Shown here: in pieces, positions 1-44,333 of the stretch
Layout of the letters: each line of letters starts with the position of its first letter
Numbering within the stretch: the first letter of the stretch is position 1
Origin: Thalassobium sp. R2A62
Lineage (GTDB): Bacteria > Pseudomonadota > Alphaproteobacteria > Rhodobacterales > Rhodobacteraceae
Assembly: GCF_000161835.1 (NCBI RefSeq)
Contig: NZ_GG697169.2
Span: 862,418-926,417 of the forward strand
DNA: 64,000 nt
Reading direction: 5' to 3'
Program-made: the position numbers and the translations under genes
Notes under the pieces: model-generated
The model's input: the letters and a program-made list of their open reading frames with translations, nothing else
Told to the model about the DNA's origin: nothing
Databases searched by the model: none

Positions 1-341
1 TTTCGATCGAGCTTAACAGCATCAATGCTCGTGAAGATGCTTGCGAATTGACGTTCTTTTTGTCGAACACAACGGACATCAACATCAACGCCTTTGTATT
101 GGAAACGGTGTTGTTGACCAAAGATGGGGGCGTGGATCGCCTGACGTTGTTCGACATGCGCGATGTCCCGACGGGCCGCCCGCGTGTGCGACAATTCAAT
201 GTCCCCGATCTGCAATGTGACGCCTTGGGGCAAGTTTTGATCAATGGCGTGGCCACGTGCGACGGCGACGGCCTGACGCCGGCCATGTGTTCTGACACCA
301 TGACATTGTCCTCGCGCATCGATGTTGAGGTTTTGGGATGA
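1..341 (+). CDS. Unknown exported-type protein, 5' end missing
   Basis: The frame is open from base 3 to the TGA at 339-341, so this is the C-terminal part of a gene that begins before the window. An internal TTG at 48 is not needed as a start. The visible 112 residues alternate hydrophobic and polar positions as in a beta-rich domain and carry four cysteines, which would suit an oxidised periplasmic fold. I do not recognise the family. Its stop overlaps the exbB start (ATGA), so it is translationally coupled to the exbB-exbD-exbD-tonB genes. A role in the TonB system or in handling the substrate is inference from position only. Confidence 0.6.
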   Translation, partial: SIELNSINAREDACELTFFLSNTTDININAFVLETVLLTKDGGVDRLTLFDMRDVPTGRPRVRQFNVPDLQCDALGQVLINGVATCDGDGLTPAMCSDTMTLSSRIDVEVLG

Positions 342-970
342 CGTTCGTTACAAACCTTCAATCCCAGCTTTGGGCCATCTTTGACCTTGGCGGTCCAGTT
401 GTCGCAATATTAATCGCATTGTCCATCGTGTCGCTGGCTGTGATCCTGTGGAAGCTGTGGCAATTCATGGCGCTTGGTGTCGGCCATCATCGCGACATCA
501 CGCGCGCCATGACCAACTGGGATCACGCCCAACCCGAAGAGGCCAAACACGCGCTGATTCAAAGCAAAAACGCGATGGCGGCGGCACTGGTACGCGGAGA
601 TGACACAACCCAAAAGTCTCGGGTTGAAGCAGGGGCAAGCGCGCATCTAACGCGTTTGGAAGGGGGATTTCGCATCCTCGACAGCATCGCGCAAATCGCG
701 CCACTGCTGGGTCTGTTCGGTACTGTTTTGGGCATGATTGACGCGTTCCAAGCATTGCAGGACGCCGGAAATTCAGTTGATCCGTCTCTGTTGGCAGGTG
801 GCATTTGGGTGGCGCTGCTCACGACGGCTGCGGGTCTTGCGGTTGCGATGCCCACGTCCCTTGCGCTCACGTATTTCGACTCTCGCGTTGCATCTGAACG
901 CACACTTGCAGAAACTGCAATTGAGGCACGTTTTTCACCGCTTAAGCCTGCCACAGCCCATGCCGCTTAG
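338..970 (+). CDS. exbB: ExbB/TolQ-type proton channel subunit
   Basis: MotA/TolQ/ExbB-family inner-membrane protein, 210 aa, near the usual ExbB length. Three hydrophobic segments are visible: about residues 17-45, 117-140 and 150-177. The segment after DSIAQIAPLLGLFGTVLGMI and the following GGIWVALLTTAAGLAVAMP block are typical of the family. With ExbD it converts proton-motive force into motion of TonB, which opens outer-membrane siderophore receptors. The ATG at 338 overlaps the preceding stop, and its own stop overlaps the exbD start. ExbB rather than TolQ is chosen because tonB follows directly and no tolA/tolB is present. Confidence 0.9.
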   Translation: MTFVTNLQSQLWAIFDLGGPVVAILIALSIVSLAVILWKLWQFMALGVGHHRDITRAMTNWDHAQPEEAKHALIQSKNAMAAALVRGDDTTQKSRVEAGASAHLTRLEGGFRILDSIAQIAPLLGLFGTVLGMIDAFQALQDAGNSVDPSLLAGGIWVALLTTAAGLAVAMPTSLALTYFDSRVASERTLAETAIEARFSPLKPATAHAA

Positions 971-1355
971 CGCCTCCCGACCGCGCCGCAAGGCGTTGTC
1001 GATGACCTCCCTCATCGACGTGATCTTTTTACTGTTGCTGTTTTTCATGCTCAGCTCAACGTTCACACGGTTTTCAGAAATCCAATTGTTCGGAGCGAGC
1101 GCTGGAACGCAAAGCACCGCGGCCCAATCCGAAAACACGCCAATCTTTTTGCAACTGGCACCCGAGGATGTGCGGTTGAACGGTCAGGGATTTGATCTCT
1201 CGCGCGTGCCTGATGGCGTTGCCGCATTGCGGGGCTTGGACGAACAGATGGTGTTGATTTCCGCTACATCTGACGACGTGACCGCGCAACGGCTGGTCGA
1301 TGTGCTTATGATTCTAGCAACGGTTCCCAACCTTAATGTTGTGGTACTGGAATAA
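960..1355 (+). CDS. exbD: ExbD biopolymer transport protein, copy 1
   Basis: ExbD/TolR family, 131 aa, with a single N-terminal membrane segment (about residues 17-37) followed by a periplasmic domain. The segment SLIDVIFLLLLFF carries Asp20, the position of the protonatable aspartate of E. coli ExbD (Asp25). The frame stays open far upstream, but the ATG at 960, inside the end of exbB, gives a normal ExbD N-terminus and tight coupling. It is followed two bases later by a second exbD. The pair probably forms the ExbD dimer inside the ExbB ring. Confidence 0.88.
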   Translation: MPLSASRPRRKALSMTSLIDVIFLLLLFFMLSSTFTRFSEIQLFGASAGTQSTAAQSENTPIFLQLAPEDVRLNGQGFDLSRVPDGVAALRGLDEQMVLISATSDDVTAQRLVDVLMILATVPNLNVVVLE

Positions 1356-1357
1356 AC

Positions 1358-1747
1358 ATGGGCTTGCGACACACAACACCGCGCGCACGGCCGGAACCGA
1401 CGATTGCGTTGATCAATATCGTATTCCTCATGCTGATATTCTTCATGATCGCGGGAACACTTGCGCCGCCACTGGATGATCAGGTGACCCTGGTGTCCAC
1501 CGAAAACCTTGACGGGCGTGCGCCGCCCGATGCGACTGTGCTGATGTCTGATGGGCGGCTCATGTATCGCGGCGTGGCCACAACGACACAACAGATCATC
1601 ACGCGCGCGCAGACGAACAGTGGCAGCGTCGAAGTGCGCATCGTGGCCGACCGCGCCGTCTCGGCCAATGTTTTGATGGATCACGTCGCCACCCTGCGCG
1701 CTGCAGGTGCGACATCCGTTTGGATCATCACCGAAAGGGGTCTGTAA
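1358..1747 (+). CDS. exbD: ExbD biopolymer transport protein, copy 2, with Asn at the proton-carrying Asp position
   Basis: Second ExbD/TolR-family protein, 129 aa, one membrane segment at about residues 16-34 and a periplasmic domain of normal size. The segment reads TIALINIVFLMLIFF. The residue aligned with the essential Asp of copy 1 is Asn20 (codon AAT), so this subunit should not carry a proton. ExbD works as a dimer, which suggests a heterodimer with one active and one silent subunit. The gene starts 2 bases after copy 1 and stops one base before the tonB start, within a four-gene operon. Confidence 0.87.
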   Translation: MGLRHTTPRARPEPTIALINIVFLMLIFFMIAGTLAPPLDDQVTLVSTENLDGRAPPDATVLMSDGRLMYRGVATTTQQIITRAQTNSGSVEVRIVADRAVSANVLMDHVATLRAAGATSVWIITERGL

Positions 1748-1748
1748 C

Positions 1749-2774
1749 ATGGGTCTGAAACGGGGGGTGATTGTGTGTGTCTTCGCCTCAGCCGCGATGC
1801 ATACGGCTGCTGTCACCCAGTTTGACATGCCCGACACGACGCTTGCGGCGGCCAGCCCGCCACCGGCCTTGGTCAGCGCCGGCAACAGTTTTGAAGACAT
1901 GGTGATGGGCACAACCGCAACGCCCCCGCCCACGCCAATTGAACCACGTGAGGTTGAGGAGACCGTGGTCGAGGGCAGCGAAGCACAGGCCACCCCTGCC
2001 CCGACACCATCGACCACACCGTCAAATGCGCCAACCCAAACTGCAACAGCGACAACAAGCATCCAGATCAGCCCAGATAGAATTACGGATGGGGCCGCAG
2101 ATGTCGCGGCAACATCGCTTGCGCCAACAGCGGCACAACCACTCGCGCCAGCGGATGCCACACCAGTCGCGACACCATCCGCCGTGTCAGAAACAACGCC
2201 CACACGCCCGTCTGATCAAGTGGCACCAATGCAACCCGAAACCCTTGAAGCATTGCCAGACGTCACGGTGAACAACGTCACCGCAAATACAGTGCGCCCA
2301 CCGGATCGCCCAGCAAATCTAGGGCAAACCCCACCGCCGCCACCTCCGACACCGCAGCGCACGACACAGCGCGCAACACCCGCGGCCCCCAGCGGCAACG
2401 CCCAACAAGACACGACACGCGGCGCACAGGCGCCCGCCGCGGCCCCAACAGCCCAACAAACGACGCAAGGCCAAGGTCAGCAAGCAGATCAAGCCGCAAT
2501 TGCCGCCGCACGTCAGGCCGTCGCGAATTATCCAAATCAGGTGGTACGCCGTATCAGCAATGTGCGCCGAGAAGGCACCCGCGCGCGCGGCGTTGCTGTC
2601 GTGAGCTTTCGGATCGGCGGATCTGGTCAATTGGTGGCTGTCAGTATCGCACGGAGTTCGGGGAATGCAGATCTCGACCGGATTGCCATAAACCACATCC
2701 GCCGCGCAGCCCCGTTTCCAGCTCCACCAAGCGGCGCGCAAACATCATTCTCTTTCGAATTTCAGGGGCGTTAG
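1749..2774 (+). CDS. tonB: TonB energy transducer
   Basis: 341 aa. An N-terminal hydrophobic anchor (about residues 5-22) is followed by a long Pro/Thr/Ala/Gln-rich periplasmic spacer (about 30-255). A C-terminal TonB domain begins near RRISNVRREG and includes SFRIGGSGQLVAVSIARSSG and HIRRAAPFPAPP. The open frame begins earlier, but the ATG at 1749, directly after the second exbD, gives the expected N-terminus. It couples ExbB/ExbD energy to outer-membrane receptors. No receptor gene lies in the window. The stop shares 4 bases (2771-2774) with the stop of the convergent ABC ATPase gene, leaving no room for a terminator. Confidence 0.88.
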   Translation: MGLKRGVIVCVFASAAMHTAAVTQFDMPDTTLAAASPPPALVSAGNSFEDMVMGTTATPPPTPIEPREVEETVVEGSEAQATPAPTPSTTPSNAPTQTATATTSIQISPDRITDGAADVAATSLAPTAAQPLAPADATPVATPSAVSETTPTRPSDQVAPMQPETLEALPDVTVNNVTANTVRPPDRPANLGQTPPPPPPTPQRTTQRATPAAPSGNAQQDTTRGAQAPAAAPTAQQTTQGQGQQADQAAIAAARQAVANYPNQVVRRISNVRREGTRARGVAVVSFRIGGSGQLVAVSIARSSGNADLDRIAINHIRRAAPFPAPPSGAQTSFSFEFQGR

Positions 2775-3538
2775 ATCACGCAGGGCGTCATCACCGGCGT
2801 TCCGGTTTCAGGGTCATCGTACACTCTGACCTTCAGTCCATAGACGTCGCGTATCAGCCCAGATGTGACCACATCACGCGGTGTGCCTTTGGCCAGCATC
2901 CGCCCCTCGCCCATCACAATCAACGTATCCGCATACCGAGCCGCCTGCGCGATGTCATGCAACACCACCACACAAGTTTTCCCCCGTCGGGTCAATGCGG
3001 CAAGCAGATCAAGCGTTTCATATTGAAACCGGATATCCAGAAACGACGTCGGTTCGTCAAACAGCAAATATGGAGTGTCCTGCGCGATCCCCATTGCGAT
3101 AAACACACGCTGACGCTGCCCGCCTGATATTTGCGAAAGTTTGCGATCTTTCAGGTCAGAAATTCCCGCAGCATCCATTGCATCCCCGACGATTTGCACG
3201 TCCGCAGAACTGCGCATCCCGAACATATTTTGATGAGGCGCACGACCGTAGTGCACCAGTTGTTCGACAGATATGGCTGGCGGCACCACCGGGTTCTGGG
3301 CCAGCAACGTCACGTGTTTGGCCAATGTACGGCGTGGTGTCTGCGCCACATCCAACCCACCAATCGCGATGCGACCGGTTTGGGGCAATACGCCTGCAAT
3401 CATATTCAACAATGTCGATTTCCCACACCCGTTCGGCCCAATCAACGCGGTCAGTTGACCCGTTGCAATCTGCGTCGTGATCGGACCCAGTTGAAACGAT
3501 GCATGGCCGCCCTGCACGTCGTTCAGATCAATGCTCAT
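2771..3538 (-). CDS. Iron-chelate ABC transporter ATP-binding protein (FecE-like)
   Basis: 255-aa single-domain ABC ATPase. Walker A is GPNGCGKST (about residues 34-42), the signature is SGGQRQR, and Walker B is LLFDEPTSFLD, with the switch His in VVLHDIAQ. Best fit is the FecE/FhuC/BtuD class that powers siderophore or cobalamin import. It is last in a four-gene operon (binding protein, two permeases, ATPase) whose members overlap by 1-4 bases, and it faces the exb/tonB operon. Ferric siderophore is the likeliest substrate given the TonB genes and the nearby siderophore-interacting protein. Cobalamin or heme is less likely but cannot be excluded. Confidence 0.9.
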   Translation of the reverse strand: MSIDLNDVQGGHASFQLGPITTQIATGQLTALIGPNGCGKSTLLNMIAGVLPQTGRIAIGGLDVAQTPRRTLAKHVTLLAQNPVVPPAISVEQLVHYGRAPHQNMFGMRSSADVQIVGDAMDAAGISDLKDRKLSQISGGQRQRVFIAMGIAQDTPYLLFDEPTSFLDIRFQYETLDLLAALTRRGKTCVVVLHDIAQAARYADTLIVMGEGRMLAKGTPRDVVTSGLIRDVYGLKVRVYDDPETGTPVMTPCVI

Positions 3539-4527
3539 GCCCGTATTTTTCGCTGTGTGGTGATCATTATCATGACAAAAAACGGCGCACCCAACAGGGC
3601 TGTCACGATACCCGCTGAAACCTCAATCGGTGGGGCAATGGCGCGCCCAATGGCGTCCGCCCACACCACCAATCCCATGCCGATCAACATCGCACAGGGC
3701 AACAAACGGGCGTGCCCGCCGCCCAGCACTGTTCGCGCGATATGCGGGGCGATCAGTCCGACAAATCCAAGTACGCCAACAACGCTGACCGATAACGCCG
3801 CAAGCAAAACGGCCAATATCATCAAAGATAGGCGTGCGGCGCGCACATTCTCGCCCAGACCGCTCGCCGTTTGAGGCCCCAGCCGCAGCAGATCAAGGCG
3901 GTAAAACAGCGAAAGCGCTATCGCGATACAGACCAATAACCAAGGCCAGACCAATCCTAAATGTGTCCATCCCCGCGCCCAAAGCGATCCAGTCAACCAG
4001 ATCAGAGGTGCGGAAAACTGCGCATCCGATGATGTGACCAGAATGAAGTCTACGCCAGCATCGCATAAAAACCCAACCGCGATCCCGACTAAAACCAGAC
4101 GCGCAGGCGAAGCGCCGCGCAGGTCAGCCCCAATATAAATAATTGTAGCGGCCAGTATCCCTCCCGCGATGGCGGCTATCGGCAAATAGGCCAATGAAAC
4201 TGACGGCAGCAAAAGCACCATGAGGCACACACCCAATGCCGCGCCAGAATTGATGCCAATGATCTTCGGGCTGGCCAATGGGTTGCGCAACAATGCCTGC
4301 ACAATAGCTCCTGATAACGCCAAAGACGCGCCCGTCAGCAGCGCCAAGACTGTGCGTGGAAGGCGTGATTTCAGGATGATGTAATCCTGCTTCGGGCCAT
4401 CAAGATCAAACAATGTGTTCGCAATGACGGACCATTCAATCGCGACAGCACCCGCCGACAGCGACCAGATCGAGGCCAATAAAACACCAACCACCAAAGC
4501 GACAAACACCAACCCGTCCCGTGTCAT
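3535..4527 (-). CDS. Iron-chelate ABC transporter permease (FecCD family), second copy
   Basis: 330 aa with about nine to ten membrane segments. Family landmarks are SRLPRTVLALLTGASLALSG, RNPLASPKIIG and GFVGLIAPHIAR, the last being the cytoplasmic loop that contacts the ATPase. It forms the inner-membrane channel with the neighbouring FecCD protein, a normal arrangement for siderophore importers with two non-identical permeases. Starts and stops overlap by 4 bases on both sides, so all members should be co-translated. Confidence 0.9.
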   Translation of the reverse strand: MTRDGLVFVALVVGVLLASIWSLSAGAVAIEWSVIANTLFDLDGPKQDYIILKSRLPRTVLALLTGASLALSGAIVQALLRNPLASPKIIGINSGAALGVCLMVLLLPSVSLAYLPIAAIAGGILAATIIYIGADLRGASPARLVLVGIAVGFLCDAGVDFILVTSSDAQFSAPLIWLTGSLWARGWTHLGLVWPWLLVCIAIALSLFYRLDLLRLGPQTASGLGENVRAARLSLMILAVLLAALSVSVVGVLGFVGLIAPHIARTVLGGGHARLLPCAMLIGMGLVVWADAIGRAIAPPIEVSAGIVTALLGAPFFVMIMITTQRKIRA

Positions 4528-5522
4528 TCGATGTCATCCGCAAAAAGGGCTTGGCATAAGAAGAACGGTGCGCCAATCAGAGCCACGACCACACCAACGG
4601 GGATTTCAATCGGGGCCGTCAACCACTTGGACACGCCATCAGCGGCCATCATCAACGTGGCCCCAATGATCGGCACTACAAACACCAAACGGCGATGATC
4701 CGGGCCGATTAGCATACGGCACACATGGGGCACGACCAACCCGACAAACGCAATCGGGCCTGCAACCGCAACGCTGGTTCCCGTCAAAACGGCAGCGACG
4801 AAGGCACCCATCAACAAGGTCATGCGCGGGTCGGCCCCAAGGCCAGCACTGGATGCCTCACCCAAGGCCATCAGGTTCAAACGTTGCGCGATGAATGCGG
4901 TGGCGATCAGGCCCCCACCCGCCCAGACCACGATCAGTTTTACGTCATCCCAACGTACGTCCGTGATACTACCGACCGTCCAGCGCAGCACCTGACGCGA
5001 CAGATCATCCTCAAGCGTGAAGGTGAAGCGCACCATCGCATAGGCAAACGCGCCCACCGCGACACCGCCCAGAACCAGACGCAATCCATCCAAACGGCCA
5101 CCCAAACCACCCGCAATTGCAAAGGTGATGAACCCCGCCGTAAATGCACCCACAATGGCGAGGGTTTGCAAACCCAAAGCATTTGAAACTGGCGCAAACA
5201 CCAAGCCGAAAACAAGCCCAAGCGCTGCCCCCTGATTCACCCCAAGGATCGCGGGTGAGGCCAACGGATTACGGGTCACGGCCTGCAATATCAAACCCGC
5301 CAGCCCCAGATTAACCCCGATACACATCGCAACAACCGTGCGTGGCAGCCGGATGTCCCACATCACGCTTGCCGCTAAAGTATCGCGCGCAAACAGGTCC
5401 CAAAAACCTACGTCGCCCCGACCTCCAGTGGTGATCGAGGCGTACGCACAAAGACAACATGCTAAAATAAGAAGCGACAGGCGGGGCCATCTCACACCCC
5501 CGCTTGCCCGAAATTGCATCAT
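4524..5522 (-). CDS. Iron-chelate ABC transporter permease (FecCD family), first copy
   Basis: 332 aa, about nine to ten membrane segments. Landmarks are IRLPRTVVAMCIGVNLGLAG, RNPLASPAILGVNQGAALG and GPIAFVGLVVPHVCRML. The frame is open for another 29 codons upstream, but the ATG at 5520-5522 overlaps the stop of the binding-protein gene, giving the usual FecCD start. It pairs with the downstream permease to form the channel. The substrate is not fixed by sequence alone; ferric siderophore is favoured from context. Confidence 0.9.
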   Translation of the reverse strand: MMQFRASGGVRWPRLSLLILACCLCAYASITTGGRGDVGFWDLFARDTLAASVMWDIRLPRTVVAMCIGVNLGLAGLILQAVTRNPLASPAILGVNQGAALGLVFGLVFAPVSNALGLQTLAIVGAFTAGFITFAIAGGLGGRLDGLRLVLGGVAVGAFAYAMVRFTFTLEDDLSRQVLRWTVGSITDVRWDDVKLIVVWAGGGLIATAFIAQRLNLMALGEASSAGLGADPRMTLLMGAFVAAVLTGTSVAVAGPIAFVGLVVPHVCRMLIGPDHRRLVFVVPIIGATLMMAADGVSKWLTAPIEIPVGVVVALIGAPFFLCQALFADDIE

Positions 5523-6454
5523 CAGTTCGTCGCGCCAGCCTGTGACATAATCGCGATCAGGTCTTGCGCCATCAGCTCTGCGGCCAACAGCCCACGCAAA
5601 CGCGACCAATTGTGCGCCGTCACAGTATGAACCGCTCCATTGCTAACGGATTTAAGGTTCTCATAAAGCGGCTCACCGACCCAGCCATCAGTAAATGCAG
5701 GGTCCGCGTACTTGCCCAAGATTAGGATATCGGGGTCAACGACGGACAGCTGTTCCAGCGTGGTAGGCACATAATTTGTCTCATACACCTCGCCCTCGCC
5801 TGGCGTCATCGTTGATGAAAACCCGAACATCTCAAGCAGGGACCCGTTATAGGACATGGGGCTGTGCAGCCACAAACCCGTTGCATTGGTTACGCCGAAC
5901 TGTGCGACAACACCGTCCGAAACCTCAGCGATCTGAGCTGCGTAATCATCCATCACCGCCTTGTGGGTCGCGACACGGACGGCGGCCTCATCCGCGCGAC
6001 CAAGGGCGGCACCGATCACTTCCATCTGCTCAAGAGCGGCAAAGTAATCACCGCCCAAACTGTCCAAAACGATTGTCGGGGCAATTTCGCTAAGCGTGTC
6101 ATAGGCGGCCTCATGGCGGGTCAAATCCACGATAATTAGGTCGGGCTGAAGCGATGCGATCACCTCAAGGCTGGGGGTTTTACGCGTGCCCACGGACACC
6201 CATTCATCGCCGATCACATCCGTATACGCAGGAATAATGCGATCACGGTTATTGTCGTCCGCAATCCCAACGGGGGCCACGCCAAGTGACGCCAGTGCAT
6301 CAACGTAGCTAAATTCCAGGACCACAATCCTCTCGGGGGTATCCGGCACGTCCGTAACGCCCATTTCATGGGTGATGCTATCCGCCCAAGACGGCATTGC
6401 CGCACCCAGTGCGAGGCTTGCGAAAGTCGTAAGGAAAGTTCGTCTGATCTGCAT
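5522..6454 (-). CDS. Periplasmic iron-siderophore binding protein (FecB-like)
   Basis: 310 aa with a signal peptide (RRTFLTTFASLALGAAMPSWA) and the two-lobed ligand-binding fold of the FecB/FhuD class. Landmarks are TPERIVVLEFSYVDALASLG, LIIVDLTRHEAAYDTLSEIA and, near the end, WSRLRGLLAAELMA. It captures the ferric chelate in the periplasm and hands it to the two FecCD permeases encoded next. It is the first gene of the operon. The 121 bases upstream contain no TGA-N9-TCA box, but carry two TTTAGAA half-sites on the coding strand that resemble half an Irr control element; this is weak evidence. Confidence 0.9.
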   Translation of the reverse strand: MQIRRTFLTTFASLALGAAMPSWADSITHEMGVTDVPDTPERIVVLEFSYVDALASLGVAPVGIADDNNRDRIIPAYTDVIGDEWVSVGTRKTPSLEVIASLQPDLIIVDLTRHEAAYDTLSEIAPTIVLDSLGGDYFAALEQMEVIGAALGRADEAAVRVATHKAVMDDYAAQIAEVSDGVVAQFGVTNATGLWLHSPMSYNGSLLEMFGFSSTMTPGEGEVYETNYVPTTLEQLSVVDPDILILGKYADPAFTDGWVGEPLYENLKSVSNGAVHTVTAHNWSRLRGLLAAELMAQDLIAIMSQAGATN

Positions 6455-7313: not shown

Positions 7314-7936
7314 AGATCACACCGTAGACCGGTCGGGAGCAAATCCGAAAGATCGACGCGCGCATCTTGGGCGATCATTTCAGCCGCATCAAACCAATCC
7401 ATCGCCCAACACGTTTCGCGTGTGATACCATGTAACCCACCTGCATAAATATGGCCCAACGCCAGCGCTGCTTTGGCATCGCCCTGTGATGCGGCGGCAC
7501 CCAACCAATACAATGCCTGATCGCGATGATCAGATGTGTGGGCGGTTTCCAAACGGATCATCGCAAATTGAAACTGCGCATTCAGATGGCCGGCCTCAGC
7601 TGCGTTAACCAAGTATGACAATCCCAGCGCAGGATCCTCTGACACGCCAAGCCCGACGATATAGCGCACCCCCAAAAGATAGGACGCGTCTGGGTGATTT
7701 TGGAAGGCCGCATGATGCAATAATTCAAGTGCTTTGGCCTGCTCAGCCAGTGAACAATGCGGCTGATCCAAACGCTGCGACAAATTGAATTGTGCCTGTG
7801 CATCCCCGGCTTGGGCGTAGCGCTGAACCAAATAGCTGCCCGCATCTTCGCACAGCGCGTCCTGCGCAAAGGCAGGAACCACATGTGCGGCACTGAAAAC
7901 AAATATGGCAATATTTCGGAGCAAATCTAATCCCAA
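7310..7936 (-). CDS. Exported Sel1-repeat protein
   Basis: 208 aa with a signal peptide ending near FAQ (residue 25) and four to five Sel1-type repeats of about 36 residues, for example ASYLLGVRYIVGLGV, AQFQFAMIRLE and AALALGHIYAGGLHG. Sel1 repeats form an alpha-solenoid that binds other proteins. The partner is unknown. The ATG at 7936 is used; no close neighbour shares its strand, so it is probably a single-gene unit. Confidence 0.75.
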   Translation of the reverse strand: MGLDLLRNIAIFVFSAAHVVPAFAQDALCEDAGSYLVQRYAQAGDAQAQFNLSQRLDQPHCSLAEQAKALELLHHAAFQNHPDASYLLGVRYIVGLGVSEDPALGLSYLVNAAEAGHLNAQFQFAMIRLETAHTSDHRDQALYWLGAAASQGDAKAALALGHIYAGGLHGITRETCWAMDWFDAAEMIAQDARVDLSDLLPTGLRCDL

Positions 7937-8038
7937 CTAATTTACTCGACTTTAGCATACCACCGCCCTATTTTCTACAGTTAGATACGTTCTGCCAGCC
8001 GCCGCCCGCTGACGTAAGTCACACCACTGGAGAACTTT

Positions 8039-8524
8039 ATGACACTGAGAATGACCCGTAGAACCGCAATCGCAACGGGAACCGCCGCCCTTTTAGCGCG
8101 CCCTGCTTTGGCACAAGACGCGACCGTTCACGAAGTACAAATGCTCAACGCAGATCCAGAAAACCCACGAACCCGCATGGTCTTCCTGCCACGCGTTGTC
8201 GTGGCACAGCCCGGCGACACCATTAAATTTATCGCCACCGACCCCGGCCACAACAGTGAGAGCATCGAAGAAATGATGCCCGAAGGCGTTGAAGGTTGGG
8301 AAGGTGACATCAACGACGATGTTGAATTTGTCGTCGAAACGCCCGGATTTTATGGCTACAAGTGTACGCCCCACAATTCTGTCGGAATGGTTGGGCTGGT
8401 CATCGTGCAAGGCGATGGGATGTCCGACAATCTAGAGGCCGCCAAAGACGTGCGTCAGCGCGGCAAAGCCCGTCAAATCTGGGACGAAATTTGGGAAGAA
8501 GTCGACGCGCTCGACCTCGCCTAA
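8039..8524 (+). CDS. paz: Pseudoazurin, blue copper electron carrier
   Basis: 161 aa. A Tat-like or Sec signal sequence (RRTAIATGTAALLARPALAQ) precedes a cupredoxin domain. The type 1 copper ligands are visible as His71 (DPGHNSE), Cys109, His112 (YKCTPHNSVGM) and Met117, with the spacing of pseudoazurins. It is a periplasmic electron donor, classically to copper nitrite reductase or nitrous-oxide reductase, or to cytochrome c peroxidase. None of those partners is in the window, so its acceptor is unknown. An 11-bp hairpin follows the gene. Confidence 0.9.
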   Translation: MTLRMTRRTAIATGTAALLARPALAQDATVHEVQMLNADPENPRTRMVFLPRVVVAQPGDTIKFIATDPGHNSESIEEMMPEGVEGWEGDINDDVEFVVETPGFYGYKCTPHNSVGMVGLVIVQGDGMSDNLEAAKDVRQRGKARQIWDEIWEEVDALDLA

Positions 8525-8588: not shown

Positions 8589-9236
8589 CTATTTGTGCAA
8601 ATGCCAGACAGTGCGTTCAGACCCGGAGGATTGCGAAAGTCGGCCATTGAAACTATCAATTGGCATAGATCTCGAGACCGGTTCAATGCGATAAAACTGG
8701 CCATAAATGCGCGAAATCTCGTGCCCCTTAACAGAAAATGGCGGACCAGCCATAAGCGATTGGTCATATTCAAAACTCAACAGCAATTGCGTGGCACCCC
8801 GTGTCAGGTCGTGAACATGCGGCCCGAACCGGTTGCGCAGATTGCGTGGCAAAGCAACCAAAGCCGCGCGATCATAGACGGCATCAATAGGACCGATTTG
8901 ATGAGGTATCAATTCAAAAATGTCCCCCACAAAAACATCGATCAATGGGGCGCTGTAGCGTCGTACAGAACCATCAGCGACGATTTCAGGGTCGATGCCG
9001 AGATCAGAAAACAACGCCATCACCGCAACCTCGCTGAGTTCGGATGCAACGACGCTGTAACCTTGATCAAGCAGCCATTTGATATCGCGTGTTTTCCCGC
9101 ACAGCGGCACGAAAACCCGTACGGGTGATTTCGAAATCACCGTCGGGAAATATGTTGCAAGCATCGAATTCACCTTTGCGTCGTGAAACCCGATGTTGTT
9201 TTGATGCCATTTATCGTGCCAGAACTGCGGGTCCAT
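8589..9236 (-). CDS. tpm: Thiopurine S-methyltransferase family protein
   Basis: 215 aa, the length of bacterial TPMT. Landmarks are the N-terminal FWHDKWHQNNIGFH, the SAM-binding FVPLCGKTRDIKWLLDQGY with GSV-type strands after it, and YDRAALVALPRNLR. The family methylates thiopurines and, in bacteria, inorganic or organic selenium and tellurium species. The physiological substrate here is unknown. It lies upstream of the siderophore-interacting gene on the same strand in coordinate order but is separated from it by only 19 bases, so co-transcription is possible. Confidence 0.88.
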   Translation of the reverse strand: MDPQFWHDKWHQNNIGFHDAKVNSMLATYFPTVISKSPVRVFVPLCGKTRDIKWLLDQGYSVVASELSEVAVMALFSDLGIDPEIVADGSVRRYSAPLIDVFVGDIFELIPHQIGPIDAVYDRAALVALPRNLRNRFGPHVHDLTRGATQLLLSFEYDQSLMAGPPFSVKGHEISRIYGQFYRIEPVSRSMPIDSFNGRLSQSSGSERTVWHLHK

Positions 9237-9255: not shown

Positions 9256-10041
9256 CTATGCAGCGGCTTCTGCGCGTTTCATCTGTTGGTGCTCATCCTC
9301 AATAAGGCCCATTTTCCAATACCCTGAAATGTAGCAATCCTGCTTGGCCAATCCCTTTTCACCGGTCACATAACTGCGCAGCGCTTTGATGACACCACTT
9401 TCACCCGCGATGCAGGTTTGAACAGTTCCGGTGGGCCAGTTCCACGCATGAACGGCGTCAATCAACTGGGTGCTTGGCGCGTGGGGGTCTGGATGAACAA
9501 GCCAATGCAGACGCACACCGTCCGGCGCGTTCATGTCTTGCGCGTCATCAATGTGCGTGACCTCAAAAAAGGCATCACCCTGTGCGTCACGCGGCATCGC
9601 CTCAAGGGTGGCGGCCGCAACTGGCAGCGCGGACATATCAGCAACCACCAGATACCGATCTGCGTAAAACTCTGGCACCTTTACGGGGCCCGGTCCGGCA
9701 AACCCGCAGAACGACCCGATCTTGGCCGCGCGCGCCCATGCGGATGCTGGCCCCGCGTCCCCGTGATCGACAAAATCAATGTCCATTTCACGATCCTCAA
9801 CGCGCATATGGCGCACTGTATACGTGCGCACCGTCGGGCGCGGGCCGTTCATCAATTGCGCGCCAAACGCGGCCTGTGATTGGCCCGCCTCTGGCAAAAA
9901 CACTTTGCAATTGGCGCCTTCACAGCCCGATTGCATGGTGGCGATTGCATCCCCTGCCAATGTCACGCGGATCATATTTGGCGTCAGATGCCATACATCG
10001 ACAACCTGTAACAGATAGGGCGATTTTTTTGGGGGATTCAT
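9256..10041 (-). CDS. Siderophore-interacting protein (NAD(P)H/FAD ferric-siderophore reductase)
   Basis: 261 aa of the SIP/ViuB family. The FAD-binding RPTVRTYTVR motif lies in the N-terminal barrel (about residues 69-78) and the family C-terminal NAD(P)-side motifs are AGESGVIKALR and YISGYWKMG. These cytoplasmic flavoproteins reduce Fe(III)-siderophores so that iron is released after import. The start overlaps the stop of the upstream unknown gene by 4 bases, which ties that Cys-cluster protein to iron release. Together with the exb/tonB and Fec-type genes this supports a siderophore-uptake function for the region. Confidence 0.88.
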   Translation of the reverse strand: MNPPKKSPYLLQVVDVWHLTPNMIRVTLAGDAIATMQSGCEGANCKVFLPEAGQSQAAFGAQLMNGPRPTVRTYTVRHMRVEDREMDIDFVDHGDAGPASAWARAAKIGSFCGFAGPGPVKVPEFYADRYLVVADMSALPVAAATLEAMPRDAQGDAFFEVTHIDDAQDMNAPDGVRLHWLVHPDPHAPSTQLIDAVHAWNWPTGTVQTCIAGESGVIKALRSYVTGEKGLAKQDCYISGYWKMGLIEDEHQQMKRAEAAA

Positions 10042-10574
10042 TGGCGCACCTCAGTTTCTAAACACGTCACCAACAGTGCCAGTGCCGCCAGAAATGGCGC
10101 GTGATCCCCACCCTGACACAACAACAACGCTTGCGTGCGCGCGTCTGACATCCGCCCGCGCCGCGCTGAATGCAACGCCGCAACCAGATATCGTTCTTCC
10201 TTGGTGATGTATTTTGAACAATCCGAACACCCCGGATCACAATAACTGAACCCCGCACTGCGCACAAAGCGCACGGTATTCACCACCTGTAAAACCCGCG
10301 CCGCGATCACCGCGCCTGCCGGAGAATCAAACAACTGTTCGGCCGTGAAAATGGCGGGCATCCACGCCTGTGATGTTGGATAATGAAAGCTGACAAAAAA
10401 CAATCTGGCGATATGCAGCACATGTCGTTCATCAGTATCAAACGGCAGTTGATTTTGCATTTGATACTGATCGTGCCCCGTAGGTATGTGCGCGGCGTAC
10501 GGATGTTGTGTATGCGCCATGACGTTCCACCGTTGTTTGCGTGGCAGGGCCACAAGGGAGATAAAATCTGGCAT
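10038..10574 (-). CDS. Unknown protein with Cys cluster, paralog A
   Basis: 178 aa from the ATG at 10574; an alternative ATG at 10520 would give 160 aa. I do not recognise the family. It carries YCDPGCSDC (Cys112, Cys116, Cys119; C-x3-C-x2-C), then EER and, 30-odd residues later, LLCQGGD with Cys153. The same layout occurs in paralog B (11885-12385) and, without three of the four Cys, in paralog C (11189-11671). Four conserved Cys could bind an Fe-S cluster or a metal; this is inference. The 4-base overlap with the siderophore-interacting gene suggests a shared task in ferric-siderophore reduction. Confidence 0.75.
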   Translation of the reverse strand: MPDFISLVALPRKQRWNVMAHTQHPYAAHIPTGHDQYQMQNQLPFDTDERHVLHIARLFFVSFHYPTSQAWMPAIFTAEQLFDSPAGAVIAARVLQVVNTVRFVRSAGFSYCDPGCSDCSKYITKEERYLVAALHSARRGRMSDARTQALLLCQGGDHAPFLAALALLVTCLETEVRQ

Positions 10575-11182
10575 TGCTTCCTTCTAACGCGGCCGCCCTC
10601 CCCGCTTACCGTGAAGAATTGCGCGGCCTTGGGCGTACCCTTTGGCCGTTGTTGTTTGTATCAGGTGCAGGCGCGATCGTAGGTTCACTTTTGCTGCTCG
10701 TGTCTGATCCGGATTTTTTCGTCGGATTGATCCCGTTTTTGATCCTCTTGGCGACGTTTTTGTTTGCGTTGGGCGATGTGTTGCGCGCATGGGTTTTGAA
10801 GACCGCAGGCGCACACAATGGCAAAATACTGATCTTCGCCGCGCTTTTTATATGTTCGATCTATGGTGGGTACTTTGGTGCAGGTCTTGGCATCATTCTG
10901 TTGGCAATCGCACAGATCATGGGATTTAGCGATTTTCATGTCGCCAACAGTATTAAAAATCTGCTTGCCACCAGCTTCACTGTGCTCAGCATCATCGTGT
11001 TCGGAATTGGCGGTCTAATCGCGTGGCCTGAGGCTGGGGTGATGATGGTCGGTAGTACAATCGGCGGCTACTTTGGCGGGCGCTTTGCCAAACGAGTAAA
11101 TCCAAAAATCCTGCGATGGCTTCTCATTGCCTTCGGCTTGATCCTGTCCGCCGTCTACTTCTGGCGCTTTTTTATTGAATAA
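10574..11182 (+). CDS. TauE/SafE-family permease, N-terminus apparently missing
   Basis: 202 aa with about seven membrane segments; GGYFGAGLGIILLA and GGYFGGRFAKRVNP are typical TauE/SafE positions. The first possible start is the TTG at 10574, just after an in-frame TAA at 10562. From that start the protein begins in the middle of the family's usual first repeat (NAAALPAYREELRG resembles the segment before the third helix), so roughly the first 50 residues of a normal 250-aa member are absent. The start overlaps by one base the divergent start of paralog A. It may be a remnant or a functional short variant. Substrate unknown; the family exports sulfite, sulfoacetate or other organic anions. 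Confidence 0.7.
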   Translation: MLPSNAAALPAYREELRGLGRTLWPLLFVSGAGAIVGSLLLLVSDPDFFVGLIPFLILLATFLFALGDVLRAWVLKTAGAHNGKILIFAALFICSIYGGYFGAGLGIILLAIAQIMGFSDFHVANSIKNLLATSFTVLSIIVFGIGGLIAWPEAGVMMVGSTIGGYFGGRFAKRVNPKILRWLLIAFGLILSAVYFWRFFIE

Positions 11183-11188
11183 AGCGCA

Positions 11189-11671
11189 CTACACCAGCGT
11201 AAGTTGTGGCCGTTTGGACGACCTCAAAACCTCGCCGTCTGAATCAAGTTGTGCAGCCAGCAGAAGACCTTGTGATACAATACGCGACGGAATATGCCCG
11301 CCCGTCAACCGCGCCAGAATTTCACGTGCTTTGGGCGTTTCATCAGCGCGCATCGCCGCAAGCAAAGACAAAACATCGCCTTCATCCAGTGTCAGATGTT
11401 GGCGCGCATCAATATCTAAGGGATCGCAATACGCCAAAGGAACGGGGCGCGCCCGTAAAACAGTCGACAAAAACGTCTGCGTTCCGTTGGCGATGGACAG
11501 TCCGCGCGCTTCGCCCCAAGTCGCTGATGCAGACGCAAACGCAAGCCGCCATCCTTGGCTGTCAGGCTGCATGAATGCGTTGAGGAAATGGCGGACCACC
11601 GGCAGCAAAGCGCGGCTGACGACATCCAATTGGTTTAGATGCACGGGCATATGTGATCTAGACACGCTCAT
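11189..11671 (-). CDS. Unknown protein, paralog C of the Cys-cluster family (Cys mostly lost)
   Basis: 160 aa. It aligns by eye with paralogs A and B over most of its length (for example VVRHFLNAFMQPDSQGW against IARFYFQSFAVPESHSW in B). Only one Cys (Cys82 in YCDPLDID) remains where the others have three, and the later CEGND/CQGGD Cys is gone. It may be a regulatory or structural partner of the Cys-bearing paralogs. Its ATG at 11671 overlaps the stop of the small upstream gene by 4 bases, so the genes 12385-11189 form one coupled operon. Function unknown. Confidence 0.7.
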   Translation of the reverse strand: MSVSRSHMPVHLNQLDVVSRALLPVVRHFLNAFMQPDSQGWRLAFASASATWGEARGLSIANGTQTFLSTVLRARPVPLAYCDPLDIDARQHLTLDEGDVLSLLAAMRADETPKAREILARLTGGHIPSRIVSQGLLLAAQLDSDGEVLRSSKRPQLTLV

Positions 11672-11892
11672 CCGTCACGCCTTTGATCGACGTGGCCATT
11701 GGGAAATAAAACCACCCCATCGGGCAGATTGCCGGCGCCCACATTGGTTGAAAGCGATTGCGCGGGTCCCGCCGACTTCGATGCAAATCTACCCTTATTT
11801 TCGAGCGCAGCGTGTAATTTAGGATTCAACCCAGCCCTCGTCAATTGCGCCAACAGATCCATTGCGAGAGGCGTGTTAACAGCATCAGACAT
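11668..11892 (-). CDS. Small unknown protein between paralogs B and C
   Basis: 74 aa from the ATG at 11890-11892; the frame opens further upstream, but this start overlaps the stop of paralog B by 8 bases and its own stop overlaps the start of paralog C by 4. No membrane segment or Cys; the C-terminal half contains GAGNLPDGVVLFPNGHVDQR. I do not recognise it. The tight overlaps on both sides are the main reason to accept it as a gene. Confidence 0.6.
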   Translation of the reverse strand: MSDAVNTPLAMDLLAQLTRAGLNPKLHAALENKGRFASKSAGPAQSLSTNVGAGNLPDGVVLFPNGHVDQRRDG

Positions 11893-12385
11893 ATGCGGCC
11901 TCGCCGCTTGCCGCGACACGCTTTGGCAACACAGAAACAAGCCGCGTCAATGCATCCAAGGATGGGCGGGTGTCGTTCCCTTCACAAAGCATCATCAATT
12001 CAGTTTTCGCGTGCCCTTTGCGGCCGGTCCGTATCGCCCGTATCGCTGTCGTGAACCGACGTTCATGTTCTGTAACGATAGCTGCGCAATCGGGGCATGT
12101 GGGTGAGTTGAAGCAATATACTGATTTTCGCGCCTGTCGCACCGCCATCAAAGCACCTAGTAATCGGGTCCCCACAAGCGGCCCTTTGATGTCTCCAAAC
12201 GCCGCTTCTGATTCCTGTAGTGCCCCAATCCATGAATGGGACTCAGGCACAGCAAACGATTGAAAATAAAAGCGTGCGATCGTCAGAATATGGGCTTCTA
12301 CAGCGTCTAGATCAGCATCACTGAGCATAATTTCTTTCGACTGCAGCACGCGGTTACAGTGCAGGTTGGTACTACTTTTTGTCAT
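11885..12385 (-). CDS. Unknown protein with Cys cluster, paralog B
   Basis: 166 aa from the ATG at 12385, which has an AGAGG element 8 bases upstream; the frame continues open to 12583 but without a better start. It shares with paralog A the order YC-x5-CPDC (Cys91, Cys97, Cys100), then E-x-ERR in TEHERR, TGR, and LCEGND with Cys134. It is the first gene of a three-gene overlapping operon (B, small gene, C). An Fe-S or metal site is plausible but unproven. I do not recognise the family. Confidence 0.75.
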   Translation of the reverse strand: MTKSSTNLHCNRVLQSKEIMLSDADLDAVEAHILTIARFYFQSFAVPESHSWIGALQESEAAFGDIKGPLVGTRLLGALMAVRQARKSVYCFNSPTCPDCAAIVTEHERRFTTAIRAIRTGRKGHAKTELMMLCEGNDTRPSLDALTRLVSVLPKRVAASGEAAYV

Positions 12386-13055
12386 AGTCGGGCCTCTAAT
12401 TGCAGTTTGGGGTTCACCTATCTGGCGGGTCTTGCAATGGGCTGGACAAAAGTTTGAACCGAATGATACTTTAATCCTGAGTATTTCTATCGGAAAAGCA
12501 AGTGCGAAGTTATGAACGCGACCTAGCCAAAAAGAATAAAGCACTAGCAGGTACAGATGCTTACTGGGCATTGAATGACGCACGGTACTAGCGAGTGATA
12601 GCCTTACGCCAGCCTGTGTTGCCTATTAGGTGCTGGCGTCAGACATTCATTCAGTCAGCTTGGTTCAGGGCTTACTCTGTGCGGCGGTTCTTTGACTTGC
12701 AGGTGCTTGAACAAGATACGCTGTATTGAAAGATGGAGGAACCATTACAACACCAAACGACCACATAGTGCTCTGGGCTATCGCCCACCTGCGCCGGAGG
12801 CCATCGTAACGATGGACCAAAGGACGATCATGCACTAACTTTCAACATGGACCACTCAAGTGGGGCCGCCCAAGGCTACGGTCTCACTGATGGGGATGCC
12901 AAGGACAATTTTAGGGATTGAGGGCAGCGATACGGATTTGAGTTTCCGCAACATGCAGGCCAAAGTCCCGCACCATCAACGAAACCAATCCCGCCCTTAG
13001 AAGACGACCCGAAGTGTGCACCTCCGGGCCGCCCATGCTCCAAAGAAGCATGTGT
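12386..13055. other. 670-base gap with IS debris, no intact gene
   Basis: Upstream of paralog B there is first a plain promoter-like stretch. A perfect 8-bp inverted repeat follows (ACGCCAGC at 12606-12613 and GCTGGCGT at 12632-12639), then the tail of an IS3-type transposase and its terminal repeat (about 12713-12870). A 69-aa open frame at 12911-13120 on - overlaps the AlpA-like gene and has no recognisable features, so it is not called. Confidence 0.6.
12713..12870 (+). mobile_element. 3' remnant of an IS3-family insertion sequence
   Basis: One frame on + reads the C-terminus of an IS3-type OrfB transposase: RWRNHYNTKRPHSALGYRPP then APEAIV, ending at the TAA 12836-12838. Ten bases later comes TGGACCACTCAAGTGGGGCC (12848-12867), which looks like the terminal inverted repeat of such elements. 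The catalytic DDE core and the left end are absent, so this is a dead fragment. It marks a past insertion next to the paralog operon. Confidence 0.75.
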
Positions 13056-13235
13056 TTACTCTCGAGCGAGTAGTCGCTCTTCAAGCCAGTCCAAGACTTC
13101 CTGTTCCACCCATCCGACACGGTTAGGGCCCAGCATTACCCGCTTGGGAAATGTGCCTGCCTTCTCTAATCGAGCGATGTGTTGAAGTGAGTACGAGACC
13201 AACTCTTTGAGCGCTTTCTTTGAGAGTATTTTCAT
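13056..13235 (-). CDS. AlpA-like DNA-binding regulator (orphan)
   Basis: 59 aa from the ATG at 13235, with GGGAGAT about 8 bases upstream; the frame is open to 13421 but that extension has no family support. It is a short winged-helix protein of the AlpA/MerR-like excisionase class: LVSYSLQHIARLEKAGTFPKR is the recognition region, followed by GPNRVGWVEQEVLDWLEERL. Such proteins control integrase or excision genes of prophages and islands. No integrase is present nearby, only an IS fragment, so it is probably left from a decayed element. Confidence 0.75.
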   Translation of the reverse strand: MKILSKKALKELVSYSLQHIARLEKAGTFPKRVMLGPNRVGWVEQEVLDWLEERLLARE

Positions 13236-13296
13236 AACGATATCTCCCTGAATTAAGGAGCATCGCGATGCCCCAAGGGTTGAGCCTCGTGAAAAT

Positions 13297-42433: not shown

Positions 42434-43249
42434 ATGAATGAACTGCTGATCTTTGATCCAAAGGGTGGGATGCCGCGATTGTTGATGATCATGGAGCGGT
42501 TGCGCGACCCTGATACAGGCTGTCCTTGGGACATTGAACAGGATTTCGCCAGCATCGCGCCCTATACGATTGAAGAAGCCTATGAAGTCGCGGACGTAAT
42601 CGAACGCCAAGATTGGGACGAGCTTGAAGGTGAGCTGGGCGATCTGTTGTTGCAGGTCGTCTATTTCGCGCAAATGGGGCGCGAGGTCGGCCATTTTGAC
42701 TTTGCCAGCATTGCAGATGCGATTTCTGACAAGATGGTTGCGCGACATCCCCATGTCTTTGGTGACGAGAACCGCGACAAGAGCGCAGAGCAACAGGTTG
42801 TGGATTGGGAAAAGATCAAAGCGGCCGAACGTGCGGGCAAATCACAAGGTGGCGCACTAGAGGGTGTCGCCCTTGGCCTGCCTGCATTGCTGCGTGCAAC
42901 CAAATTGCAAAAGCGGGCCGCGCGAGTGGGATTTGATTGGCCCGAGACAGAACAAGTCTTGGACAAGATAATTGAGGAATCACGCGAGCTGATCGAGGCC
43001 AAAGACACGCTGACCCAAGCTGACGTCGAAGAAGAATTTGGTGATCTGATGTTTGTCATGGCGAACCTCGGGCGGCATCTGGGATTGGACCCCGAGGCCG
43101 CCTTGCGTGCCGCCAACGCTAAATTTACCAAACGGTTTGAAGGTGTTGAAGAACGCCTTGCTGCGATGGGGAAGACGCCAAACGATAGCAATCTCGCTGA
43201 AATGGACGCCCTTTGGGATGCCGTAAAAGTTGCCCAGAAGAATATCTGA
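42434..43249 (+). CDS. mazG: Nucleoside triphosphate pyrophosphohydrolase MazG
   Basis: 271 aa from the ATG at 42434, which gives the family start (NELLIFDPKGGMPRLLMIM); an earlier in-frame ATG at 42401 exists. Two MazG domains show the EExxE-type metal sites: EEAYEVADVIERQDWDELEG in the first and EESRELIEAKDTL with EEEFGDLMFVMANL in the second. It hydrolyses aberrant NTPs. Its stop codon TGA is also the left half of the first iron box for the next gene. Confidence 0.92.
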   Translation: MNELLIFDPKGGMPRLLMIMERLRDPDTGCPWDIEQDFASIAPYTIEEAYEVADVIERQDWDELEGELGDLLLQVVYFAQMGREVGHFDFASIADAISDKMVARHPHVFGDENRDKSAEQQVVDWEKIKAAERAGKSQGGALEGVALGLPALLRATKLQKRAARVGFDWPETEQVLDKIIEESRELIEAKDTLTQADVEEEFGDLMFVMANLGRHLGLDPEAALRAANAKFTKRFEGVEERLAAMGKTPNDSNLAEMDALWDAVKVAQKNI

Positions 43250-43261
43250 TTTTTTTAATCA
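43247..43261. promoter_or_regulatory. TGA-N9-TCA box 1 (Iron-Rhodo-box candidate)
   Basis: TGA, nine A/T bases, TCA; with flanking C and G it forms CTGAT...ATCAG. TGA-N9-TCA is the Iron-Rhodo-box pattern predicted by comparative genomics in Rhodobacterales for iron-regulated genes. The TGA doubles as the mazG stop codon. Confidence 0.55.
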
Positions 43262-43271
43262 GGTATTGACC

Positions 43272-43286
43272 TGACTAAAAAAGTCA
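43272..43286. promoter_or_regulatory. TGA-N9-TCA box 2 (Iron-Rhodo-box candidate)
   Basis: Second copy 25 bases further on, inside a perfect inverted repeat (ACCTGAC, seven-base A/T spacer, GTCAGGT). It lies 43 bases before the iron-binding protein's ATG, so it would overlap the promoter. Two boxes in tandem argue against chance. Confidence 0.65.
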
Positions 43287-43328
43287 GGTTTACCCGTGGC
43301 ACCGCAACAAACCACTAAGGACGTCGTT

Positions 43329-44333
43329 ATGCTACGCTCATCCATTTTCTCTCTGACACTTTCCGCGCTTGCCATGCCGGTCATCGCAGACGAGGTGAAC
43401 ATCTATTCCTACCGCCAGCCAGAGCTCTTGGCGCCACTGACTGACGCATTCACAGCCGAGACAGGCATCGACGTGAACGTAGCCTATCTCGCCAAAGGTA
43501 TGATCGAACGTCTCCAAGCTGAGGGCGACCGCTCTCCTGCCGACGTGATCCTGACTGTCGACATCTCTCGCTTGACGGACGCTGTAAATGCAGGCGTGAC
43601 ACAGCCCGTTACATCTGACGTTTTGACTGCAAACGTACCTGCAGAGCTGCGCGATCCCGAGGGTCAGTGGTTCGGCGTCACGACACGTGCTCGCATCGTA
43701 TACGCAAGCAAGGAAAACGTAGCTGACGGCGAAATCACAACCTACGAAGATCTCGCCGATCCCAAGTGGGAGGGCCGCATCTGTACACGCTCGGGCACAC
43801 ACGCATACACATTGGCGTTGGTCGCAGGCATGCTGCACCACCACGGTGAAGAAGAAACCCGCACATGGCTCGAAGGCGTCAAGAGCAACCTTTCCCGCAA
43901 GCCGCAAGGCAACGATCGTGCACAGGTCAAAGCGATCTGGGCTGGCGAATGCGACATCAGCCTTGGCAACACATACTACATGGGCAAAATGCTTGAAGAT
44001 CCAGAGCAGCAGGACTGGGCCAATGCCGTCCGCATCACCTTCCCCGAGTTCGAAGATGGCGGCACACACGTCAACGTATCGGGCATTGCGATGGTCAAAG
44101 GTTCGCCAAACAAAGAGAACGCATTGAAGCTGATGGAATTCCTCGCGTCGCCAGCGGCACAGGAAATCTACGCCGAGGCAAACTATGAGTACCCGATCGC
44201 ACCAGGCACAGAGCCTACTGAACTGGTTGCAAGCTGGGGCACATTCACGGCAGACGACGTGAGCCTAGCAACCTTGGGCGGCTTGCGTGCAGACGCATTG
44301 CGCCTGATGCAAGAAGTCGATTTCGACGGCTAA
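43329..44333 (+). CDS. Ferric-iron ABC transporter substrate-binding protein (FutA-like), orphan
   Basis: 334 aa from the ATG at 43329 with a signal peptide ending VIADE (about residue 20). The N-terminal NIYSYRQPELLAPLTDAFTA, ICTRSGTHAYTLALVAGM and GNTYYMGKML with the YY pair are typical of Fe3+-binding FutA/FbpA proteins, where tyrosines hold the iron. No permease or ATPase gene follows. The two TGA-N9-TCA boxes upstream suggest iron control. A strong terminator follows. Confidence 0.88.
   Translation: MLRSSIFSLTLSALAMPVIADEVNIYSYRQPELLAPLTDAFTAETGIDVNVAYLAKGMIERLQAEGDRSPADVILTVDISRLTDAVNAGVTQPVTSDVLTANVPAELRDPEGQWFGVTTRARIVYASKENVADGEITTYEDLADPKWEGRICTRSGTHAYTLALVAGMLHHHGEEETRTWLEGVKSNLSRKPQGNDRAQVKAIWAGECDISLGNTYYMGKMLEDPEQQDWANAVRITFPEFEDGGTHVNVSGIAMVKGSPNKENALKLMEFLASPAAQEIYAEANYEYPIAPGTEPTELVASWGTFTADDVSLATLGGLRADALRLMQEVDFDG

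Follow-up and report, generated by a model that had tools for sequence, protein, structure and literature searches.

Gene organization of the locus

The genes studied here lie on the minus strand of a 64,000 bp stretch of the Thalassobium sp. R2A62 genome (contig NZ_GG697169.2, positions 862,418 to 926,417; hereafter the window, in whose numbering coordinates are given), and encode three related proteins, A, B, and C, and a small companion, S, whose link to iron starvation is the subject of this work. Gene B (12385–11885) encodes a 166-residue protein with cysteines at C10, C97xxC100, and C134, and overlaps by 8 bases gene S (11892–11668), a 74-residue open reading frame (ORF) which in turn overlaps by 4 bases gene C (11671–11189), encoding a cysteine-poor paralogue of 160 residues. 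Gene A (10574–10038) encodes another cysteine-bearing member, with a His-rich N-terminus and at most 178 residues, as its true start may be internal. Located 3' of A is a gene for a siderophore-interacting flavoprotein (SIP; 9256–10041, minus strand; Pfam SIP 2e-33, FAD_binding_9 2e-29), whose start at 10041 shares 4 bases with the stop of A. The coordinates of A, B, and C and the occurrence of these overlaps agree with an earlier sequence-only reading of this DNA.

Family relationships and distribution

The kinship of A, B, and C proposed in that reading proved to be far beyond chance, as a search of the own genome with A recovered B (E = 1.6e-24) and C (1.6e-8), and B and C matched each other at 2e-8 (BLASTP), while A and C gave no match in a plain pairwise BLASTP and are related only via the family. 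However, the genome holds five members, not the three supposed, the additional ones being A' and C', a second pair located around 145 kb away (A' to A, 2.0e-41; E values from 2e-41 to 5e-7 for the four members other than A). A' adjoins a second SIP gene (SIP'), and C' lies alongside on the opposite strand. SIP' is broken by an in-frame TAG around 57 codons in (locus L006, G000:C1:1008000-1027999, 10086–10940), whereas A' and C' are open; the same region also holds transposase-like and integrase-like ORFs. Comparison with Octadecabacter orthologues revealed purifying selection on A, B, and C, with nonsynonymous divergence (dN) of 0.20–0.29 and synonymous divergence (dS) at or near saturation.

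Profiles built on A/B and on C matched 32 of 298 and 40 of 397 Rhodobacteraceae genomes, respectively, and only one of about 285 genomes of Alphaproteobacteria outside this group, so the family is largely confined to Rhodobacteraceae, where about 10% of the genomes carry it. Holders include Roseovarius, Tateyamaria, Octadecabacter, Loktanella, Lentibacter, Salipiger, Rhodovulum, and Sagittula, along with one metagenome-assembled genome of Hyphomicrobiales and Labrenzia plasmids; no second genome of the genus of the window was found among the relatives searched. A tree of 78 members separated a B clade, an A clade (A, A', L037, L038, and a second Octadecabacter gene), and a C clade. Members carrying a CxxC motif (56 of the 78) were defined as the Cys type and the remaining 22 as the cysteine-poor C type, 20 of which make up the C clade together with one cysteine-bearing sequence.

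The overlapping arrangement of B, S, and C, noted before for this locus only, recurs elsewhere. A profile of S found companions of about 70–100 residues immediately 5' of C-type genes, again overlapping them by 4 bases, at six loci (the window, L006, L062, L063, L064, and L080), as well as relatives before or after some Cys-type genes at other loci, and again in previously unseen genomes (L186, L194). In ten cases, a C-type gene follows a Cys-type gene in one operon, and in several of these S lies between the two genes or precedes them. Judging from this recurrence in sequence, S is a genuine conserved companion and not a spurious ORF.

An iron box upstream of family genes

The first sign of a common promoter element was a perfect palindrome located 5' of A', TTTCTGACAATATTTGTCAGAAA. 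Six boxes of iron genes outside the family (imelysin, SIP, HmuS region, TonB receptor, ABC transporter, and ChuX) then served as the sole training set for a matrix, and a box was called when a score of at least 13 was reached within 400 bases upstream. Boxes were detected for 53 of the 78 members, corresponding to 53 of the 68 that are promoter-proximal (first in their transcription unit) and none of the 10 that are operon-internal, against 0 of the 328 control regions taken upstream of genes outside the family; as members are kin and some loci share a genome, Fisher p-values on these counts overstate independence, although most member pairs are only 25–40% identical. Where no iron gene is present at the locus, 30 of the 34 promoter-proximal members still carry the box. 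Control DNA contained one site of such score in 600 kb, and in eight unseen genomes 8 of the 11 family genes were preceded by a box.

A published Rhodobacter IscR site, GACTATTTCTGTCGG, which is bound in vitro (PMC6956336), scored 15.9 on this matrix, the 99.99th percentile of random 15-mers being 12.6. The box of the family is of the same palindromic form as the Iron-Rhodo-box of the IscR regulon, and the two share neighbours too, namely imelysin/irpA-type operons, SIP, afuA, and TonB receptors. Unlike the genes of that regulon, the family was not found described as a member in the papers searched; the comparison did not extend to the hypothetical regulon genes of R. sphaeroides (RSP_3076–3078 and others). 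For RSP_3076–3078, RSP_1543, and RSP_6006, dependence on IscR has been measured before. From its sequence and the genes that it precedes, the box looks like the known iron-starvation switch, and the family is probably controlled by IscR.

In the window, sites scoring at least 13 form three groups. The first, ATCCTGAGTATTTCTATCGGAAA (12474–12496, score 16.9), lies 5' of B, the first gene of the B-S-C unit; A itself has none. The second is a pair of adjacent boxes (43243–43290, scores 25.3 and 24.0), 5' of a gene for a periplasmic solute-binding protein (43296–44333, plus strand) resembling the AfuA/FutA iron-binding proteins. In R. sphaeroides, afuA is an IscR-responsive gene with an iron box (PMC4618611), and the pair serves here as an internal control for the association of the box with iron genes. 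The third is a borderline site (7930–7952, score 13.0) before a cupredoxin gene (8039–8524); in L042 and L050, too, cupredoxin genes of the same type lie close to family members.

Some arrangements around the boxes recur. A-clade genes lie beside a divergent gene for a YeiH-like membrane protein (Pfam Cons_hypoth698) in L006 (11617–12648), L076 (7561–8655), and L037 (1046–2059), and in L006 a box is located between both genes. Two family genes placed back to back in L195 (67–1319) share one intergenic region with box-like sites scoring 14.9 and 13.2. Finally, stand-alone C-type genes of L065, L067, and L070 occupy the same chromosomal place, before sulfurtransferase-like and aminotransferase-like genes, with strong boxes and no iron genes.

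Gene neighbourhoods

Linkage to iron acquisition, which the sequence-only reading expected to recur, was detected at 26 of 57 distinct family loci that had an iron or heme gene nearby (SIP, FecCD permease, periplasmic binding protein, TonB receptor, HmuS, imelysin, di-heme oxidoreductase, DUF1513, or ExbB), compared to 1 of 40 random loci from the same genomes (p = 7e-7), a test that is biased on its own, as these query families were picked after viewing the loci; the identities of the query proteins were checked. Two further sets were examined afterwards: in a plasmid set with annotation from other groups, siderophore or heme clusters (Alloyangia, Paracoccus, Cereibacter, and Labrenzia) contained 4 of the 7 distinct loci, and in the eight genomes found later, iron genes were present at family loci in 4.

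That reading had gone further, suggesting an Fe-S or metal partner of the siderophore reductase in iron release, possibly as an A/B/C complex. In a rival view along these lines, A would be an Fe-S protein that gives electrons to SIP alone or docks onto it, and B and C would be its counterparts acting on other substrates. In addition to the overlap of A with SIP and the adjacency of A' and SIP', a Cys-type gene and a SIP gene share an intergenic region in L186, SIP genes lie near 10 of the 57 loci and none of the 40 controls, and a precedent exists in FhuF, which reduces ferric siderophores with a 2Fe-2S cluster and is induced when iron is low (PMC8068687). However, most members are not near SIP, and many are found in heme uptake operons, where no reduction of ferric siderophores is needed (HmuS near 8 of 57 loci); imelysin operons lie near 5 of 57. 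Moreover, SIPs take NADH or NADPH directly (PMC11965169), the SIP-linked A clade lacks the CxR-type N-terminal cysteine, and A' has stayed intact beside a broken SIP'. As heme operons are linked to the family as much as siderophore operons, we rank a dedicated SIP donor, which we consider unlikely, below an iron-handling accessory shared by several uptake routes.

In L046, L063, and L069, the surroundings of the family genes include a gene for the catalase-peroxidase KatG and an OxyR-like regulator of the LysR type, which suggests a tie to oxidative stress. These three loci are the best hint for another role, in which B or A would be a metal- or redox-responsive switch and C its non-sensing partner, tuning uptake or oxidative-stress genes. 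The presence of members beside many uptake systems and as stand-alone genes, mostly under the same box, would fit such a sensor, as would the pairing of cysteine motifs with a paralogue free of them. Nevertheless, no DNA-binding domain was found by Pfam or PDB search, there is no linkage to any one regulator, and the family itself is a target of the iron box, so this role appears doubtful, if less so than that of a SIP donor, and the shared accessory is preferred over it.

Predicted structures and conserved residues

The proteins are undescribed, as supposed before: no Pfam, NCBIfam, PADLOC, or PDB family matched them. Searches of Pfam and NCBIfam with A, B, C, S, and the aligned members, and of PADLOC, returned sub-threshold noise only, a PDB profile search gave noise as well (best E 0.33, to ferritin), and the plasmid relatives are named "hypothetical protein" in RefSeq. 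AlphaFold predicted all-helical structures for B (predicted local distance difference test, pLDDT, 93.4; predicted template modelling score, pTM, 0.87) and for C (pLDDT 87.8, pTM 0.82), with the same helix order in both. Foldseek found nothing below E 0.1 for the model of B against PDB and viral models, or for that of C against PDB, and on these models the fold is probably new too.

Two known folds were considered and rejected. The sole weak match of B was to Thioredoxin_4 (E = 0.066, 13.8 bits against a cut-off of 23.2), in one of 26 members, and a thioredoxin or DsbA-like protein does not agree with an all-helical model. AhpD/CMD alkylhydroperoxidases are also helical, contain a CxxC, and appeared among the weak fold matches, but these were noise (E 0.34 or worse, template modelling score below 0.3), and Pfam gave no match to them.

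Regarding the cysteines, the C-x3/5-C-x2-C motif described for A and B survives in part. Its CxxC is the one that defines the Cys type (56 of 56), whereas its first cysteine (C112 in A, C91 in B) occupies differing positions in the two proteins and is not conserved, being Arg in A'. Consequently, the four cysteines named earlier are not the conserved set, which is made up of the CxxC pair, the LCxG cysteine before "EGND" (kept in 47 of the 56 Cys-type members), and an N-terminal cysteine at most 22 residues before the domain, found in 42 of 56 Cys-type members and 2 of 22 C-type ones (p = 1e-7). The single cysteine of C (AYCDP) is the non-conserved one. A lacks the N-terminal cysteine and has instead its His-rich N-terminus, as most of the A clade, which fits, but does not prove, a metal ligand at this end. 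In addition to the cysteines, all Cys-type members share R38, R86, and E108 (B numbering). In the C type, R38 and E108 are likewise kept throughout, bar one truncated sequence at position 38, and R86 is kept in 19 of the 22 members.

In the model of B, the segment right after C10 is confidently placed, and its short strand at 19–20 occurs together with another at 103–104, just past the CxxC knuckle. This makes it plausible, as far as a model allows, that the conserved cysteines of B meet in space. Alternatively, the cysteines could hold zinc in a purely structural role, within an adaptor that binds other proteins. The control by iron would then reflect which complexes need the adaptor and not any chemistry of iron. 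CPxC knuckles often bind zinc, some members persist after losing one ligand, and the cysteine-poor C type keeps the helix order, all in agreement with an adaptor of this kind; nonetheless, it would leave the tie of the whole family to iron starvation unexplained, and we regard it as improbable, the least so favoured of the roles considered.

Proposed role

The role that we put forward for A, B, C, and S, at about even chances of being right, is that of an unnamed iron-starvation module of metal-binding helical proteins serving all iron routes. Under iron shortage, the Iron-Rhodo-box would be freed of its repressor, which in Rhodobacter sphaeroides is IscR, and B-S-C would be made, and so would the A-SIP pair, here perhaps by read-through, A having lost its own box. 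B and A, small, soluble, and all-helical, would bind a metal ion or an Fe-S cluster via the CxxC, the LCxG cysteine, and the N-terminal cysteine (His in A). C would be a paralogue of the same fold devoid of the metal site, most likely forming with S a mixed complex with B. This complex would serve incoming iron of any route, be it siderophore, heme, or ferric iron, and its task, by analogy with Bfd or FhuF in their own systems, would most likely be to accept iron in the cytosol, to reduce it, or to pass it on.

Several observations weigh against this proposal. The LCxG cysteine is absent from 9 of 56 Cys-type members and the N-terminal one from 14, so a strict four-ligand cluster may not hold. 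The box is identified from a single printed IscR site and from the set of genes that have it. About half of the family loci have no iron gene nearby, although most of these still have the box, and the remaining plasmid loci lie near cobalamin, molybdenum-cofactor, or unrelated genes. Finally, the A gene of the window has no convincing box (score 9.5). In this last case, the Octadecabacter orthologue of A, beside a divergent YeiH-like gene, does have one (score 23.6), and the place where it lies is occupied in the window by a TauE/SafE-like ORF (10574–11182, plus strand) that lacks the first 45 profile positions, including its start, and overlaps the start of A; this ORF may be the remnant of a rearrangement that removed the promoter box of A. 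TauE/SafE genes were found near family members at 4 loci, two of them being the same locus.

Compared to known systems, the FhuF/FSR reductases are likewise cytosolic, induced by low iron, provided with a cysteine metal site, and linked to siderophores. However, their fold is different, the C-C-x10-C-x2-C motif at the C-terminus of FhuF (PMC8068687) is absent from the alignments of family members, and no match to Pfam FhuF or FhuF_C was found in the family. The bacterioferritin-associated ferredoxin (Bfd) is also a small cysteine protein, and bfd belongs to the IscR/iron-box regulon of R. sphaeroides (PMC4618611), but there is no sequence match to it, nor any Pfam or NCBIfam match to a BFD-like [2Fe-2S] domain, and the family consists of all-helical domains of about 160 residues accompanied by a cysteine-poor paralogue and S.

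Iron-starvation accessories are a known kind of system, of which the proteins described here are new and the fold perhaps new. A bolder version, which we offer only tentatively, is that metal-bearing A/B, metal-less C, and the small S constitute an iron-handling complex of a new class, its fold being absent from solved structures, that is switched on by the Iron-Rhodo-box and common to siderophore, heme, and ferric-iron uptake in Rhodobacteraceae. The link to iron is now firmer than sequence alone could tell before, and it is the four-cysteine argument and the SIP-specific role that need correction. Roseobacters and their relatives, which are among the major bacteria of the ocean, face scarce iron, and the fate of iron after entering the cell is poorly known; an unannotated family present in around 1 in 10 Rhodobacteraceae genomes, tied to the iron-starvation regulon by promoter boxes and neighbourhoods, is probably an unstudied element of the handling of scarce iron that these marine bacteria have in common, and its role becomes directly testable by simple deletions.

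Other features of the window

Further genes for iron uptake are encoded at the beginning of the window, where genes for the energy-transfer proteins ExbB, ExbD-like, and TonB (338–2774, plus strand; Pfam MotA_ExbB, ExbD, and TonB_C) are followed by those of a siderophore-type ABC uptake system (2771–6454, minus strand), encoding an ATPase, two FecCD permeases, and a periplasmic binding protein, as identified with Pfam. A gene for a TPMT-like methyltransferase (8589–9236, minus strand; Pfam TPMT 1e-55) begins 19 bases past SIP and is probably on the same transcript; a TPMT gene beside family members was found at the window locus and at none of the other family loci. Finally, on the 5' side of B (12620–13241), a stretch resembling, by eye, the end of an IS3-type transposase and a gene for an AlpA-like regulator (Pfam Phage_AlpA 3e-10) were found, so the B-S-C module borders mobile-element debris.

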